Part shown: positions 1-34,661 of the stretch, one piece after another | Layout: each line of letters begins with the position of its first letter | How positions within the stretch are numbered: position 1 is the first letter of the stretch | DNA from: Magnetococcales bacterium | GTDB taxonomy: Bacteria; Pseudomonadota; Magnetococcia; Magnetococcales; DC0425bin3 | Length of the DNA: 47,337 bases | Direction: 5' to 3' | NCBI GenBank assembly: GCA_015231175.1 | Contig: JADGBZ010000014.1 | Coordinates: 13,678 to 61,014, forward strand | Position numbers and translations under genes: made by a program | Notes under the pieces: model-generated | The model's database searches: none | Told to the model about the DNA's origin: nothing | Seen by the model: the letters and a program-made list of their open reading frames with translations, nothing else

Positions 1-183
1 ATTTGATGTGCAGGCAAGCCATTAATCGGGGTCCAGGGGGCTGGCTCCCTGGCTTAGTCCAGGGCAGCGCCCTGGTGGGGTTCGGGGCGAAGCCCTGACA
101 AAGGCTTTCATTTCCAAGATTTTCTTGAAAGAGTGCGGAATAATCACGAAAAGTGAACACTTCAAATCATGTCGGTTGAGCCA
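1..183 (-). mobile_element. MITE copy cut by the window edge
   Basis: This is the inverted counterpart of the MITE at 20937-21134, and the two are nearly identical base for base along this length. The right end is the 11-bp terminal inverted repeat CGGTTGAGCCA at 173-183. The left terminal repeat is missing its outer 16 bases, which would lie before base 1. Bases about 29-140 hold the GC-rich core also found in the 147-bp repeats elsewhere in the window. There is no transposase gene inside, so it would need one supplied in trans. Reading frames running through it are repeat sequence, not genes. Confidence 0.8.
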
Positions 184-15395: not shown

Positions 15396-17573
15396 TCAAC
15401 GCTGGGGCAGAATGACAGCATCCTTGATTCCCACGCGCTCCTTGACCAGGTGCAGGCCGTGTTCTGCCTGCGCCTCCGTGGCAAACGGGCCGCCATAGAC
15501 ACAAGTCATGGGGCCTTTTTTCTCCAGACGGACCTCCCTCCTGGCAACCGGGAGATCAAGGGGAGCCAGCCGTTTCAGGGCATCGGTCAAGTACTCGTTC
15601 TCTGTATAACACCCCACAGTGACCAGATAACTCTTTTTTTGGAGCAAGGGTTTCTCCTGGGGGAGCTGGTTCGATCTTGCCGGGGAAGGTTGGATATTTT
15701 TAACCGGTGCAGCGACTGTTTCTGGCATGGCCGGGGGAGGTTGGACGCTCTTAACCGGCGCAGCGACTGTTTTTGGCATCTCCGGGGGAGGTTGGACGCT
15801 TTTAACCGGCGCAGCGACTGTTTTTGGCATCTCCGGGGGAGGTTGGACGCTTTTAAACGGTGCAGCGACTGTTTTTGGCATGACTGGGGCGAGTGGCAGG
15901 GGGACAACCCGGTCCGGTTTCTCGACAGGGCCAGGCCCCGTTTGAGCAACGTTTTGTGATGTGTGGAGAGGTTTGTCTGGTTTGTCAGCCGGAGCCGGGG
16001 CTTGCGCCACGGCGGATGGTGCCGGGAGGGCGTTGGCCGGAGGTTTGTCCGGTTTGTCAGCCGGGGCCGGGGCTTGCGCCACGGCGGATGGTGCCGGGAG
16101 GGCGTTGGCCGCTCTCTCCGCTGGAACCGGGGTTTGGGCGGGAAGCGGCTGCACAGGGGTGGCCTGTTTCGGTTTTTCGGCAGGAATGGGGGTCTGTAGG
16201 GCCGTGATCAACGTGGTTTCCGGGGTGGATGCCGGCTGGGGCATGGTGGCCACGACGGGCAGTTCCAGGGGTTCCGGAAGGGGGTCCACATGCTGCCATG
16301 TGGCCAGCAGACTCGCATGCAGGAGTTGCCGCGTTGCCTGACGTGCGGTCCCGGGAACCAGATAATCCCGTTGAACCCGCCAAAGGGAGAGTGAGGCCGG
16401 GTCGCCACGAAAATAGTGTTCCGCCATGGCCAGGGCCTTGGCAAACTGCGCCTTGGCCAGCTCGGGTTTGTCCGTCATCTGGTAGAGGAGCCCCAGGCGG
16501 TTCAACATGTCCGGCACGGACAGAGGGGGGGAGCGATCCTGCTGGATGGTCCAGGTCATGGCCTCTTGCAGAAGGGTTATGGCCGACACCAGTTGTTGCT
16601 CTTCGATCTGGCACAAGGCCAGATGCAGCGTGACCTCCCCCCAGGGAGGTTGGGGAGGGGTACTGAGGGTCATCAGGGTGGCACGGGCGCGTTGCAACAA
16701 AGGTATGGCCTCGGCAAATCGGCCTGCATCCCCCAGCAGGCGGCCCAGATCGTGTAAAATCTTCACCAGAAGTTGCGGACGCGCGTGCGCCCCCTTTTCC
16801 CACAGGGTCAGGGCGTCGCGCAACCGGGCTTCGGCTTCGCCCGGTTGGTTGTTGGACAGGTGCAACGCCGCCTGAAGAAGGTAAACCTCGGCCACGCCGT
16901 CAGTCATGGGGTGTGACGGCTGGTTGAGTTGGGCCAGGGCCTGTTCCAGGTGCGCAGCGGCCTCCGACCGGTGGGCAACCTCGCCACCCTGTTGCCGTGC
17001 CAAACCGATATGGGCGTAGGCGAGCAGATGACGTATCCGGAGCAACGCCGGATGGTTGGGTGCAAGTGCCGCTGCCGTTTGTAGCCACGCCTCGCCCTGG
17101 GTCAAGACCTGGGAAAAATGGCCCCGGCCATAGGGGTTGAGGAGCCGTTTTTCTTGCAGGGAGAAGATGTGGGGCATGTGTTGTTGTGGATTTTGTTGCA
17201 AAATGCGCCAGGCACGCTCCAGCAGGGGTTCTGCTTGTGCCACATCGCCAGCTTCCGTGCAGGCATCAGCCAGAGATATAAGCGCGGGAACGGTGTCTGG
17301 ATGGGACGGCCCATGCAGGCGGGTTGCTAGCCGCAGCGCTTCCCAGGCTGCCGCGATTGCGGGCTGCCGCACCGGGGCGCCTGTCCCCTGGGTGTGCGGC
17401 GTTGCCTCGGAAGCGGCACTCCAGGCAGAAGCTGCCAGGGGCAGGCCCAGCCACAAGACACCTCCAACCAGCCAGAGCCGCAGCCATGGGGGGTGGACCC
17501 CGTCGTGCCGAAGGTCTTTCTGGCGCCGGATTTGGGGCTGCGGACCGGGAACTCCGGCTGGACGATTATCCAT
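15396..17573 (-). CDS. TPR protein with Pro-rich repeats and a SPOR domain
   Basis: The 725-aa protein has a hydrophobic export or anchor segment near residues 33-55, a TPR-like helical region (about 75-400), a long Pro/Ala linker, and a C-terminal SPOR domain of about 80 residues. The linker holds two exact-looking copies of a 24-residue unit (with APAPADKPDKP) and four copies of a 17-residue unit (with MPKTVAAPVKSVQ). SPOR domains bind glycan strands lacking stem peptides at division sites, so the protein probably links a TPR assembly to the wall. An upstream TTG at 17591 would overlap the previous stop; the ATG at 17573 with GGAA before it is preferred. Confidence 0.8.
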   Translation of the reverse strand: MDNRPAGVPGPQPQIRRQKDLRHDGVHPPWLRLWLVGGVLWLGLPLAASAWSAASEATPHTQGTGAPVRQPAIAAAWEALRLATRLHGPSHPDTVPALISLADACTEAGDVAQAEPLLERAWRILQQNPQQHMPHIFSLQEKRLLNPYGRGHFSQVLTQGEAWLQTAAALAPNHPALLRIRHLLAYAHIGLARQQGGEVAHRSEAAAHLEQALAQLNQPSHPMTDGVAEVYLLQAALHLSNNQPGEAEARLRDALTLWEKGAHARPQLLVKILHDLGRLLGDAGRFAEAIPLLQRARATLMTLSTPPQPPWGEVTLHLALCQIEEQQLVSAITLLQEAMTWTIQQDRSPPLSVPDMLNRLGLLYQMTDKPELAKAQFAKALAMAEHYFRGDPASLSLWRVQRDYLVPGTARQATRQLLHASLLATWQHVDPLPEPLELPVVATMPQPASTPETTLITALQTPIPAEKPKQATPVQPLPAQTPVPAERAANALPAPSAVAQAPAPADKPDKPPANALPAPSAVAQAPAPADKPDKPLHTSQNVAQTGPGPVEKPDRVVPLPLAPVMPKTVAAPFKSVQPPPEMPKTVAAPVKSVQPPPEMPKTVAAPVKSVQPPPAMPETVAAPVKNIQPSPARSNQLPQEKPLLQKKSYLVTVGCYTENEYLTDALKRLAPLDLPVARREVRLEKKGPMTCVYGGPFATEAQAEHGLHLVKERVGIKDAVILPQR
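15690..15893. repeat. four tandem 51-bp coding repeats
   Basis: Four copies of a 51-bp unit lie inside the TPR-SPOR gene and encode the 17-residue Pro-rich unit. The middle two are almost identical, which implies recent duplication and likely length variation between strains. A separate pair of 72-bp repeats lies in the same linker at about 15970-16120. Confidence 0.8.
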
Positions 17574-20011: not shown

Positions 20012-20264
20012 ACACCGGTTCCGGTTCCGAACACGTCGTCATGCTACCCCAGATGGGCCATGTCGTCAAACTTCAGTGGCGCCGGGCGTGACAGGTATCC
20101 ACCAGACTCTGCCTCTTGGGCGGGCCTCGTGAGGAAGGTTCGTAGATAGGACATTGCAAAATATTGCGAAAAATGCTGAAAATGACCAGCAGTCGGAACT
20201 GGAGCAGGTTTTGTTGGTGCTGTTCCGAGAGGAGTCGTGGTTTGTGCAGGGAGATGGGGTACAT

Positions 20265-20663
20265 ATGAAGATTCTGATTGCCGACGATGAGGCCAACAAT
20301 CGTATTCTTTTGGAGAATTTCCTCTCTCCCTACGGCAGTTGCGACTCCGTGGTCAACGGTTTGGCTGCCGTGGAGACCTTCGAGATGGCCGTGCGTGACG
20401 GCGCCCCCTATGATCTTGTTTGCCTGGACATCATGATGCCCGAGCTTGATGGCCAAAAGGCCCTGGTCAGGATTCGCAAGCTGGAGTCCGAGTTGCGCAG
20501 CGATGGCCGGGAAGCGGCCATCTTCATGATCACCGCCCTGGATGTCGAAGAACATATGCTTCGGGCCTTCCTGATCGGTGGCTGTACCGACTATCTGATC
20601 AAACCCATCACCAGCCGGAAAGTGGTGGAAAAGCTGCGACAGCATCGGATCATTCCCGTGTAG
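20265..20663 (+). CDS. single-domain response regulator
   Basis: This 132-aa protein is a lone receiver domain with no output domain. The acidic pair D7-D8, phosphoacceptor D55 (in CLDIMMPE), T90 and K113 (in LIKPIT) are all present, so it should be phosphorylated by a histidine kinase, CheY-like. No kinase is nearby. The start at MKILIADDE is fixed by the receiver fold and by the GGGAG sequence just upstream; the frame open from 20154 is an overextension. Confidence 0.9.
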   Translation: MKILIADDEANNRILLENFLSPYGSCDSVVNGLAAVETFEMAVRDGAPYDLVCLDIMMPELDGQKALVRIRKLESELRSDGREAAIFMITALDVEEHMLRAFLIGGCTDYLIKPITSRKVVEKLRQHRIIPV

Positions 20664-20848
20664 GTGATGTTGGCGCCGTGTCCATCCTTGCCTGTGGAGC
20701 ACCCAATCCCGCGTCAGATTGAAACGGCTCTTTTCGTCGATATCAAGGTCGCTGTTTACCACCCGGCCACGCATCAAGGGCGAGGGTGCTGAATTGTTGT
20801 CCATTCAGCGCGGTTGATCCGCCAGGTAAAAGGATGGTAACCATTCAG
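20664..20848. other. non-coding stretch with a repeat remnant
   Basis: No gene is supported. Around 20752-20780 a stretch containing CACCCGGCCACGCATC without the following core resembles the outer end of the 147-bp repeat, so it may be a decayed copy. Confidence 0.5.
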
Positions 20849-21197
20849 GTAACTATCCAGACCCTTTCAAGAAAAGCCTGGATAGGAAAGCCTTTGTCAG
20901 GGCTTTGCCCCGAATCCCACCAGGACTCTGTCCTAGTGGCTCAACCGACATGATTTGAAGTGTTCACTTTTCGTGACTATTCCGCACTCTTTCAAGAAAA
21001 GCTTGGAAATGAAAGCCTTTGTCAGGGCTTCGCCCCGAACCCCGCCAGGGCGCTGCCCTGGACCCGCCAGAGAGCCAGCCCCCTGGACCCCGATTCATGG
21101 CTTACCTGCACATCAAATCAACACGGTTGAGCCACTAGGCCCTGCCAGGGAGCCAGCCCCCTGGACCCCAATTCGTGGCCGGGTGGTGAATCGTTAC
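20849..21197 (-). mobile_element. 147-bp GC-rich repeat interrupted by a MITE
   Basis: The outer ends are GTAACTATCC at 20849 and GAATCGTTAC ending at 21197, which are imperfect inverted repeats of each other. Removing bases 20937-21134 and one CTAG rebuilds an uninterrupted 147-bp repeat that matches the copies at 26987-27133 and 32752-32898 in length and order. The right end overlaps the 3' end of ctaB: the TAA stop of ctaB is part of the GTAAC terminus. The rebuilt element holds the CCAGGAC/GTCCTAG hairpin that the MITE later split. Confidence 0.8.
20937..21134 (+). mobile_element. 198-bp MITE with CTAG target duplication
   Basis: Its ends are TGGCTCAACCG (20937-20947) and CGGTTGAGCCA (21124-21134). 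The inverted repeat extends to 26 bp with four mismatches. It is flanked by CTAG on both sides (20933-20936 and 21135-21138), the target duplication typical of IS5-type transposition. It has no open transposase gene. Its interior carries the GC-rich core of the 147-bp repeat family in the same orientation as the element it invaded. A second copy, inverted, is at 1-183. Confidence 0.85.
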
Positions 21198-22057
21198 AAA
21201 GGATACGCCAGAGAGGTGTCCAGGATGATGGCCAGGAAGAGTCCCCCCAGATATTTCATGGAGGCGAGAAAATTACTCCAGCCCAACGCGGGGGTGGGAG
21301 AGCGGAGCAGCCGTAAACTGGACCAGATGAAGAAGGCGCCTGCCAAGAGACAACCCATCAGATAGATTTGTCCCAGTTCACCGAATACCCAGGGAAGGAG
21401 AGAGGAACCCACGAGCAGAAGGGTATTGAGGAGGATCACCCGTGCGGCGCGTTCCTCGCCGACCAGGACCGGCAACATGGGGACGCCGACCCGTTGATAA
21501 TCCTCCTTGAGGTGGATGGCGAGGCTCCAAAAATGGGAAGGGGTCCAGAAGAAAAGAATCAGGGCCAGAAAGAGCGGCAGGGCGCACAGCTCAGGACGGA
21601 CAGAGGCGGCACCGGCGAGGATGGCAAAACTTCCCGCCAATCCCCCGAAGACAATGTTCAACCAGGAGCGGCGCTTGAGCCAGACGGTATAGACCACGGC
21701 ATAAAAAAATGCTCCCAGAAACAGATGAAGAGAGACGATGGGATTGAAAATCCAGGACGCCATGAGGGTGCTGCTGACCAGCAAACCCGCCGCCAGCCAC
21801 AAAGCCCGCTTGGGGTCGCCCAGAACACCGGTGACGAGGGGGCGGTGAGATGTGCGGCTCATGTGCCGGTCGATATCCCGGTCGTAATAGTGATTAAAGA
21901 CCGCCGAGCTGGAGGAACCGAGAATCATCACCAGCACCAGCAGTCCCAAATGGTCCCATTGCACGGCAGGGGTCACGGCGATATAGGCCACAACAGCCGT
22001 CAAGGCTATCATGCCGCCGATGCGTAATTTCATAAGCTCAACATAATTCCGAATCAT
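21194..22057 (-). CDS. ctaB: protoheme IX farnesyltransferase (heme O synthase)
   Basis: CtaB adds a farnesyl group to heme b, making heme O, the precursor of heme A for the oxidase encoded upstream. The 287-aa protein is a UbiA-family prenyltransferase with about nine membrane segments. The first Asp-rich motif is NHYYDRDIDRHMSRT, followed by the RP of HRPL. The ATG at 22057 is preferred over the GTG at 22108. The last codon and stop run into the end of a mobile repeat (TTG TAA, with GTAAC being the repeat terminus), so the native C-terminus may have been changed by a few residues. Last gene of the cta operon. Confidence 0.93.
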   Translation of the reverse strand: MIRNYVELMKLRIGGMIALTAVVAYIAVTPAVQWDHLGLLVLVMILGSSSSAVFNHYYDRDIDRHMSRTSHRPLVTGVLGDPKRALWLAAGLLVSSTLMASWIFNPIVSLHLFLGAFFYAVVYTVWLKRRSWLNIVFGGLAGSFAILAGAASVRPELCALPLFLALILFFWTPSHFWSLAIHLKEDYQRVGVPMLPVLVGEERAARVILLNTLLLVGSSLLPWVFGELGQIYLMGCLLAGAFFIWSSLRLLRSPTPALGWSNFLASMKYLGGLFLAIILDTSLAYPL

Positions 22058-22126
22058 GGTGATTTTATCTGTCCCGTGCCGGCGAGGGGAAATGGGTCCG
22101 GTCACCACCGGATGACAAGAGAGAGG

Positions 22127-26814: not shown

Positions 26815-26888
26815 TGGCTGGCGGACTAGGATTCGAACCTAGATTGGAGGAGTCAGAATCCTCTGTCCTGCCGTTAGACGATCCGCCA
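26815..26888 (-). tRNA. tRNA-Gln (CTG)
   Basis: The 74-nt sequence folds as a cloverleaf. Acceptor TGGCGGA pairs with TCCGCCA. The anticodon stem GAGGA/TCCTC encloses the loop TTCTGAC, giving anticodon CTG for Gln codon CAG. The T arm has GGTTCGAATCC. GCCA at the 3' end is encoded. Confidence 0.97.
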
Positions 26889-26930: not shown

Positions 26931-26986
26931 GCCTTCTCCATGGGGTAAACCAGAAATCTTGCCACCGGGATAACCACTGACAAGAA

Positions 26987-27133
26987 GCAACCATTCACCA
27001 CCAGGCAATGAACCGAGGTCCAGGGGGCTGGCTCCCTGGCAGCTCCAGGTCGGAGTTCTGGTGGGGTTCGGGGCAAAGCCCTGACAAAGGCTTTCATATC
27101 CAAGCCTTTTTTGAAAGGGTTCTGAATAGTCAG
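26987..27133 (+). repeat. 147-bp GC-rich repeat between tRNA-Gln and lon
   Basis: This copy runs from GCAACCATTCACCACC to GAATAGTCAG, matching the GTAACTATTC...GAATAGTTAC ends of the family with a few changes. It contains the shared core CCAGGGGGCTGGCTCCCTGG and the GGGGTTCGGGGC segment. It lies 30 bp beyond the lon stop. Confidence 0.8.
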
Positions 27134-29634: not shown

Positions 29635-29698
29635 GCAAGGGTTCCTCGACGCTGATCTGAAAATAGAAGAAAACTGGCGCCTGCCCGGTGCTCAACAA

Positions 29699-29772
29699 CG
29701 CATCGGGGTCCAGGGGGCTGGCTCCCTGGCAGGGTCTTGGACGGTGTCCTGGTTCGGGGCGCAGCCCTGACA
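29699..29772 (+). repeat. truncated GC-rich repeat copy
   Basis: This copy has the core from GCATCGGGGTCCAGGG to AGCCCTGACA and stops exactly where the next full copy begins with GTAAC. It lacks both outer ends, and its middle is altered. The two copies are in tandem between lon and erpA. Confidence 0.75.
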
Positions 29773-29917
29773 GTAACTATTCACCACCCGACCACGCATC
29801 GGGGTCCAGGGGGCTGGCTCCCTGGCAGGTCCAGGACAGAGTCCTGGTGGGGTTCGGGGCGAAGCCCTGACAAAGGTTTTCATATCCAGGCTTTTTTCGA
29901 AAGGGTACTGAGCCACA
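29773..29917 (+). repeat. GC-rich repeat copy upstream of lon
   Basis: It begins GTAACTATTCACC and holds the clearest form of the central hairpin: CCAGGAC, loop AGA, GTCCTGG. The distal end (GGGTACTGAGCCAC) is diverged from the family terminus. Confidence 0.8.
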
Positions 29918-32751: not shown

Positions 32752-32898
32752 ACAACAGTTCAGCCCCCTCTCAAGAGAGGCTTTGACATGAAAGCCCTTG
32801 TTAGAGCTTCGCCCCGAACTCCACCAGGACGCTGTCCAGGATCTGCCAGAGAGCCAGCCCCCTGGACCCCGATGCGTCGTCAGGCGCTGAACAGTTAC
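32752..32898 (-). repeat. 147-bp GC-rich repeat abutting the msbA start
   Basis: This inverted copy runs from ACAACAGTTCAG to GCTGAACAGTTAC and is exactly as long as the copy at 26987-27133. Its end lies 2 bases before the msbA ATG, so the bases where a ribosome binding site should be belong to the repeat. Confidence 0.8.
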
Positions 32899-32900
32899 AC

Positions 32901-34661
32901 ATGAAACGGGTATTGGATCAAGCCCGCCTGGAGCTGTTGCGGCGTTTCTGGTCTCTGGTTTGGCCTTACCGCTGGTACCTGCTGCCTGCATTTGTGGGTA
33001 TGCTTCTGCTGGCTGCCACCGATGGGGCCATTGCCTACTTTGTTCAACCCATTCTGGATCATGTGTTCATCAATCAGGACGCGACCACCCTCTACTCCAT
33101 GCCGTTCTTGCTCCTGGGCATTTTCGCGTTGCGCGGTGCCGCCTATTTTGTCCAACGCTACTGCATGGAACTGGTCGGCAACCGGGTGGTGCGCCAGCTT
33201 CAGGTCGAGTTGTATCGCCACCTGCTCTCCATGGACATGAGCTACCTGCACTCCCAAAGCGCCGGCAGCCTGATCTCGCGGGTCATCAACGACACCAATC
33301 TGCTCAAGGGGGCCGCATCGACGACCATCTCCAACCTGCTTGGCGAGGGGTTGTCGGTCCTGTTTCTGGTCGGGGTGTTGTTTTACCGTGACGCCAAATT
33401 GGCCTTGATGGCCATGATCGGCATGCCCCTGGCTGGTTATCTGATCATCCATTTTGGCCGTCGCATGCGCCGCTACAGCCGAACCCGCCTGGAATTGATG
33501 GAAGGGGTGGTTGCCCATCTGGAGGAGAGCATCTCCGGCTTGCGGATCGTCAAGGCGTTTTGCATGGAGTCTTTTGAGCGGGCCGCCTTCCGCAAGGAGA
33601 CCAAGGCCGTTCTGAAGAATCAAATGCGTGCCGCCGTGGTCAACTCCCTTTCCAACCCATCCATGGATCTGGTGGCCGGATTTGCCATTGCCGGGGTTGT
33701 TTTCTATGGCGGTCAATCGGTGATCGATCACACCACAACGACCGGCAACTTTTTTTCCTTCATCACCGCCCTGCTGATGGCCTACACCCCCATCAAGCGG
33801 CTTTCGGGCTTGAACAACTCCCTCCAGGAGAGTTTCGCCGCCATCGACCGTATTTTTCACTTTCTGGACATCAAACCCCAAATCGTCAACCCGCCGCAGG
33901 CGATCGCGTTGCCGCCCATTCGTCACGCCCTTCGCTTTGACGGGGTGACTTTTGCCTACGGTCCGGGACAGGAGCCGGTTCTCAAGGAGATCGACCTGGA
34001 GATCAAGGCCGGAGAGAAGGTGGCCCTGGTGGGCGCCAGCGGCAGCGGCAAGAGCACCCTGGTCAACCTCGTGCCACGCTTCTTCGACTGCACTTCGGGC
34101 CGCATCACCATCGATGGCCGGGATATTCGGGAGGCGACCCTGACTTCGTTGCGCGCCCAGATTTCCATGGTGACCCAGGAGATCATTCTGTTCAACGATA
34201 CCATTCACCGCAATATTGCCTACGGGGATCGCAATCGCACTCCCGAGGAGGTCCAGGCTGCTGCCATGGCGGCCAATGCCCAGGAGTTTATCCTGGGTTT
34301 CCCCGCCGGTTATGCGACGCGCATGGGTGATCGGGGCATCATGTTGTCCGGCGGGCAGCGTCAACGGGTCTCCATTGCCCGTTCCCTGCTCAAAAATGCC
34401 CCGATCCTGATCCTGGACGAGGCCACCAGCGCCCTGGACACGGAAAGCGAGCGCGCCGTCCAGGGAGCCCTGGATGTTCTCATGCAGGGCCGCACCACCC
34501 TGGTGATTGCACACCGGCTCTCCACCATCCGCAATTGTGACCGGATCGTGGTGTTGGAGGCCGGACGGATCATCGAAATGGGCACCCACGAGGAGCTGTT
34601 GGCCAAAAACGGTGAGTATGCCCGTTTTCACCGGTTACAGTTCGACTATGACACCCCTTGA
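32901..34661 (+). CDS. msbA: lipid A exporter MsbA-type ABC transporter
   Basis: This 586-aa half-transporter flips lipid A-core across the inner membrane. It has six membrane helices (about 20-310) and a nucleotide-binding domain with Walker A GASGSGKS (near 376), signature LSGGQRQR (near 482), Walker B LILDEATSALD (near 502) and the H-loop in IAHRLST. It starts directly after a mobile repeat with no clear Shine-Dalgarno sequence. The typA gene follows by 18 bp. Confidence 0.93.
   Translation: MKRVLDQARLELLRRFWSLVWPYRWYLLPAFVGMLLLAATDGAIAYFVQPILDHVFINQDATTLYSMPFLLLGIFALRGAAYFVQRYCMELVGNRVVRQLQVELYRHLLSMDMSYLHSQSAGSLISRVINDTNLLKGAASTTISNLLGEGLSVLFLVGVLFYRDAKLALMAMIGMPLAGYLIIHFGRRMRRYSRTRLELMEGVVAHLEESISGLRIVKAFCMESFERAAFRKETKAVLKNQMRAAVVNSLSNPSMDLVAGFAIAGVVFYGGQSVIDHTTTTGNFFSFITALLMAYTPIKRLSGLNNSLQESFAAIDRIFHFLDIKPQIVNPPQAIALPPIRHALRFDGVTFAYGPGQEPVLKEIDLEIKAGEKVALVGASGSGKSTLVNLVPRFFDCTSGRITIDGRDIREATLTSLRAQISMVTQEIILFNDTIHRNIAYGDRNRTPEEVQAAAMAANAQEFILGFPAGYATRMGDRGIMLSGGQRQRVSIARSLLKNAPILILDEATSALDTESERAVQGALDVLMQGRTTLVIAHRLSTIRNCDRIVVLEAGRIIEMGTHEELLAKNGEYARFHRLQFDYDTP

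Follow-up and report, generated by a model that had tools for sequence, protein, structure and literature searches.

Probable nesting of an IS630-type MITE, carrying the core of an IS66-type MITE, within a second IS66-type MITE in a Magnetococcales genome

Results

The locus described here very probably consists of two nested non-autonomous cut-and-paste elements. A 198-bp MITE of the IS630 type, the core of which most likely derives from an IS66-type MITE, is inserted into another MITE of this second type, 147 bp long (Table 1). It was found in a window (the whole stretch of DNA analysed, 47,337 nucleotides, G000:C14:13678-61014) of the genome of an uncultured magnetotactic-type bacterium, 3.8 Mb in 175 contigs, and the relatives in which the same ends were detected are titled Magnetococcales MAGs. 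Two convergent genes flank the nested unit, one for a response regulator (20154-20663, plus strand) and one of the UbiA family (21194-22108, minus strand). The TAA stop codon of the latter (21194-21197) is supplied by the right terminus of the host MITE, so that insertion of this MITE set the very end of the gene.

Table 1. Features of the nested locus, in window coordinates
Feature	Position	Strand	Remark
Left 8-bp target duplication of host, AAAGGATG	20829-20836	.	matches 21198-21205 at 7/8
Host IS66-type MITE (147-bp family), split by insert	20837-21197	+	
Extra 12-bp copy of host left end (GTAACCATTCAG)	20837-20848		canonical left end is 20849
Left CTAG target duplication of IS630-type MITE	20933-20936	.	
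IS630-type MITE, 198 bp	20937-21134	+	2.5% from family consensus
Left terminal inverted repeat of IS630-type MITE	20937-20962	+	
Left MITE-derived segment, common to the core-less 99-bp sister-species form	20937-20972	+	from alignment
Captured (most likely), right-truncated IS66-type MITE	20973-21101	+	begins at terminus GTGAC, lacks last ~18 bp
GC hairpin 1 of captured core (GGGCTTCGCCCC)	21025-21036	+	same element in relatives
GC hairpin 2 of captured core (CCAGGGCGCTGCCCTGG)	21045-21061	+	
GC hairpin 3 of captured core (CCAGAGAGCCAGCCCCCTGG)	21067-21086	+	
Right terminal inverted repeat of IS630-type MITE	21109-21134	-	
Right CTAG target duplication of IS630-type MITE	21135-21138	.	
Right 8-bp target duplication of host, AAAGGATA	21198-21205	.	

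The insert is an IS630-type MITE

An element of 198 bp, bordered by CTAG copies and ending in imperfect inverted repeats of 26 bp, had been reported in a first-pass annotation of this DNA, and was recovered as described. Segments 20932-20962 and 21109-21139 are 87% complementary, and such ends greatly exceed chance expectation: when up to 2 mismatches were allowed, the end pattern TGGCTCAACCGNNNTGATTTGA was matched 78 times in the genome, and its reversed control 0 times. We read 28-29 complete copies in this genome, 179-239 bp long and without a transposase gene, the biggest size classes being 198-199 and 224 bp. Several contigs stop some 50 bp into ends of this kind, as would be expected of an assembly interrupted by repeats.

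Flanks of the copies, in this genome and its relatives, were CTAG/CTAG (21 cases), GTAG/GTAG (6), CTAC/CTAC (3) and CTAT/CTAT (1), so that the two flanks are the same at 10 sites other than CTAG. In the 35 insertions whose two flanks both contain TA, outer as well as inner bases agreed (Fisher p=1.7e-5 and 4.7e-4), and the duplication is therefore of 4 bp (NTAN). A duplication of TA only (2 bp) had been suspected from one-sided flanks at contig ends; it was ruled out by the paired flanks, TA being included within NTAN. For about a third of the copies, flanks did not match perfectly. Eight insertions (L004, L008, L010, L012, L017, L120, L132, L134) paired a CTAG flank with CTGG or CCAG; the difference is in every case within the central TA, and could be due to ordinary mutation, repair bias or a peculiarity of insertion.

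An intact 1224-bp IS630 element was detected in a relative (G038:C307:857-2080), with CTAG copies on both sides and ends (TGGGTCAACCGGGCTGATTTGA / TGTCTCAACCGAACTGATTTGA) of the same kind as those of the MITE. Its IS630-family transposase (NF033545, PF13358) is encoded by two frames that overlap, and an A-run lies where they join. This two-frame arrangement was found in L255 too, and the A-run precedes the same codons in L254 and L255; the frames meet at an A7-A9 run (L130:1370-1380, L254:1371, and L255:1097 on the minus strand). Such an organisation is consistent with programmed frameshifting as the mode of expression of the transposase. Related IS630 transposases were present in 19 of the 48 genomes of the order search. 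In the genome of origin, only a 69-aa C-terminal stretch of such a transposase was found, at the end of contig C90, adjoining a related end. Given the shared ends and the partner transposase, we call the MITE IS630-type, as a variant, despite its 4-bp duplication.

The first-pass annotation had suggested the IS5 family for the insert. The CTAG-like 4-bp duplication would suit this, as IS5-group elements also use CTAR targets, and duplications of CTAG or YTAA are made by MITEPsy1 of Pseudomonas syringae, an element listed as 'IS5?' (PMC3189936). However, all full elements found with the ends described here encode IS630 transposases, and a search of the genome of origin for the IS5-type domain PF13586 gave nothing. 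The IS5 assignment is thus extremely unlikely, and the insert is an IS630-type MITE. Matches to PF01609 at C34, C52 and C44 were also considered as a link to IS5, and none was linked to the MITE ends. An IS110-derived origin of the 198-bp element, prompted by an IS110 C-terminal fragment lying beside its right end in C70, was rejected because this fragment joins the hairpin core both in C70, where the core is borne by the MITE, and in C106, where it is borne by an IS66-type MITE, meaning that it landed there.

The host is an IS66-type MITE

Removal of the insert and of one CTAG rebuilt a GC-rich repeat of 88+59 = 147 bp, in agreement with the earlier claim and with the 147 bp of intact copies; the length is reached via two compensating 1-bp differences. 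The host repeat is present around the insert as claimed, and its outer bounds have been moved to those set by the 8-bp duplication, AAAGGAT[G/A] being found on both sides, with a 7/8 match for the window copy. Family members end in GTAACTATTCAGCACCC, and 28 of 49 copies are flanked by an 8-bp duplication (at least 7/8 identical), against a mean of 0.76 and a maximum of 5 in 1000 shuffles. The end pattern of this family, with at most 1 mismatch, had 197 matches in the genome of origin and 0 in the control, and was present in 25 of the 48 genomes.

GTAA ends and an 8-bp duplication are marks of IS66 elements, which the elements found here confirmed. Ends of the GTAACTATTCAGCACCC type are shared by autonomous IS66 elements encoding PF03050 transposases, of 1722 bp (L246, 468-2189) and 1740 bp (L247, 1043-2782); in G008 and G016 these are bordered by the perfect 8-bp duplications GTCTTTGC and GAAGCAGA. 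The 147-bp host is therefore a MITE of the IS66 type. The IS66 element recovered whole in the genome of origin (C1:61061) does not have these ends within 4 mismatches, so the IS66 driver is unseen in this genome, perhaps collapsed in an assembly of 175 contigs. A full IS was also looked for between the paired IS66 ends of C139, where an assembly gap of Ns was found instead. In our searches of the literature, which were not exhaustive, we met with no account of an IS66-type MITE.

Origin of the GC-rich core of the insert

The interior of the MITE holds the same GC-rich core as the host repeat, so that, as first noticed, the MITE bears the core of the very type of repeat in which it is nested. 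Capture of this core, which had been proposed at the same time, gained support from a core-less form of the MITE in a sister species and from the start of the captured segment, exactly at the left terminus of the host family. In the sister species (G002), the IS630-type MITE is present without the GC core in four copies, three of 99 bp that are nearly identical and one of 100 bp, alongside free IS66-type MITEs. The MITE of the window aligns with the 99-bp form over the first 36 bp, and the next base is the first of the IS66-type MITE, at its terminus (GTGACTATTC...). The captured copy extends from there to about 21101. The 224-bp form keeps the right part of the 99-bp MITE (GCATTGGAACATTTCTGCACATC against GCACCGGAAAATTTCGGCAAGTC), which is lost from the 198-bp form. 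With its left junction at a terminus, the IS66-type MITE is most likely to have landed within the IS630-type one; its right end, on which recognition of an 8-bp duplication depends, would have been lost later.

Alternatively, a free hairpin repeat may have supplied the core to each MITE type independently. Arrays of such hairpins that lack both sets of ends are found throughout the order, and in G036, which belongs to another family, the core of the IS630-type MITE does not begin with an IS66 terminus. In the genome of origin, however, both the left terminus of the IS66 type and the adjacent A-rich stretch are part of the captured segment, to the base. Independent uptake thus seems unlikely, and insertion of an IS66-type MITE is preferred. 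The MITE of G036, 218-220 bp long, has its GC hairpins arranged differently; in G036 and G032, other palindromic repeats, of the type GTCATTCCCGCG, are found in copies of 126, 208 and 422 bp. Other loaded MITEs were found inside IS66-type MITEs (L004, L005, L010, L028), mostly at or near CCTGG boxes.

Order of events

The 99-bp alignment and the 224-bp form suggest, as the simplest order, insertion, truncation, 26-bp deletion, amplification, and entry of a loaded copy into another IS66-type MITE. To judge from the relatives, an IS66-type MITE of 147 bp with a GC-hairpin array would have entered a short MITE of the IS630 type, its right end then being lost. The product would be a loaded IS630-type MITE, the 224-bp form of which may have given the 198-bp form by the 26-bp deletion. 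The loaded MITE then multiplied, as its copy number shows; an IS630 transposase that recognises TGGCTCAACCG ends presumably moved it in trans. Finally, as the present locus shows, a loaded copy entered a CTAG site in hairpin 2 of the older IS66-type MITE (20837-21197) and duplicated CTAG. The likely drivers are the IS66 and IS630 transposases of the order, whose action on the MITEs is suggested by shared ends and duplication lengths.

This history, which we consider very probable, was weighed against a scenario without transposon nesting, in which recombination or gene conversion between adjacent GC-rich repeats produced the likeness of the inner core to the host. Chimeric copies, with an IS66-type left end and a MITE right end (L018) or a second IS66 left terminus in the MITE (L017), indicate that recombination between these repeats may occur. 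At the present locus, though, the CTAG and 8-bp duplications are both in place and the rebuilt host is of family length; furthermore, about 28 further sites hold the MITE with these ends, and the flanks match at most of them. We therefore judge recombination a very improbable origin, and retain nesting by transposition. L018 (C6:40806) joins the same two element types at another junction, with no 8-bp duplication. The second IS66 left terminus inside the IS630-type MITE of L017 suggests that traffic between the two MITE types may have gone both ways.

Divergence from the family consensus is 7.5% for the host copy, higher than for the insert, in line with the nesting order. A relative age for the two mobile families had been deduced from the nesting. 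The order of these two copies stands, but the dating does not extend to the families, since both have young members: 14 of 38 IS66-type copies and 5 of 28 IS630-type copies are within 2% of consensus, both samples being biased towards the query used. The IS66-type family has thus also been recently active, and the two families overlap in time. A single complete copy of the 349-bp unit is present in the genome of origin, and movement of the unit as a block, the observation that the first-pass annotation had named as contrary to nesting, was not seen there. No orthologous empty site was found for the 20937-21134 insertion.

The GC-hairpin array

The array CCAGGG-loop-CCCTGG-ACCCG-CCAGGG...CCCTGG was read in 24 genomes. 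Complementarity of its inner stem pairs was seen in 79-80% of cells (61-66% in shuffles), the pairs being of the G-C, C-G, A-T and T-A types. As these sequences are related and the outer stem was fixed by the search pattern, we lean, short of proof, towards a conserved structure; the core would be an order-wide GC-hairpin array with compensatory changes, apparently preserved. The 198-nt strand folds at z = -6 against shuffles, which is partly due to the inverted ends. No Rfam family reached gathering score in the region, and the plasmid collection gave no match to the array.

In three loci, L074 (C70:13300-15300), L084 (C106:1-1761) and L065 (C84:1-1500), hairpin 3 of different host elements is joined at the same place (..CAGTTGC/TGGA[CT]CCCGATTC or CCCGTTTC, with the slash at the junction). 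What is joined to it comprises, in L074 and L084, a C-terminal fragment of an IS110-family transposase and then a short hairpin. An IS110-family element targeting the hairpin array is likely. More broadly, the Magnetococcales array may be a passenger shared by IS66 and IS630 MITEs, taken up more than once by the IS630-type MITE and used as a landing site by the IS110 family, with an IS630 subgroup duplicating 4 bp instead of TA; our confidence in this whole picture is evenly balanced.

Comparison with known elements

RUP, a 107-bp MITE of Streptococcus pneumoniae thought to be moved by IS630-Spn1 (PMC2229807), is the closest known kind to the IS630-type MITE: it is small and non-coding, has ends in common with an IS630 element and inserts at TA-containing sites (PMC2229807). 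The present MITE differs in carrying a captured second MITE with GC hairpins, and in its 4-bp duplication. Its partners share with IS630 and ISY100 (Tc1/mariner-IS630 family) the transposase family and a CTAG target preference, the latter given here from the title of Tenzen and Ohtsubo 1991 as cited in PMC2170065. Whereas ISY100 and IS630 are reported to duplicate TA only (PMC2170065), the outer bases of NTAN are duplicated as well by the present MITE, an exception to the TA rule of IS630 elements. The IS66 partners resemble single-gene, ISBst12-like elements by their GTAA ends, 8-bp duplication, DDE_Tnp_IS66 transposase and 1.7 kb size; the host, a 147-bp non-coding derivative, shares the ends only. 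REP/BIME elements are likewise multicopy GC hairpins on which insertion sequences, including IS110-family ones, specifically land (PMC1525189), but the present hairpins ride inside IS66- and IS630-type MITEs.

The locus thus offers a readable series of cargo gain by a MITE, from empty (sister species) to loaded 224-bp and 198-bp forms, and to a loaded copy in an element of the same kind; both transposon families that presumably drive it are identified. As the hairpin core is apparently kept by compensatory change across the order, one may ask whether the structure is useful to the element or to the host.

Other repeats of the window

A second loaded IS630-type MITE occupies positions 1-183 (minus strand) and continues before the window; CTAC lies outside its end at 184-187, and it is 97% complementary to the first MITE over 131 nt. 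More copies or fragments of the IS66-type MITE are located at 26986-27132, 29698-29911 and 32759-32908, one of them near a tRNA gene (26818-26888). Lastly, a 731-aa reading frame holds tandem repeats of 51 bp (15680-15934, with a spacing that is a multiple of 3) and of 72 bp in two copies (15968-16111).
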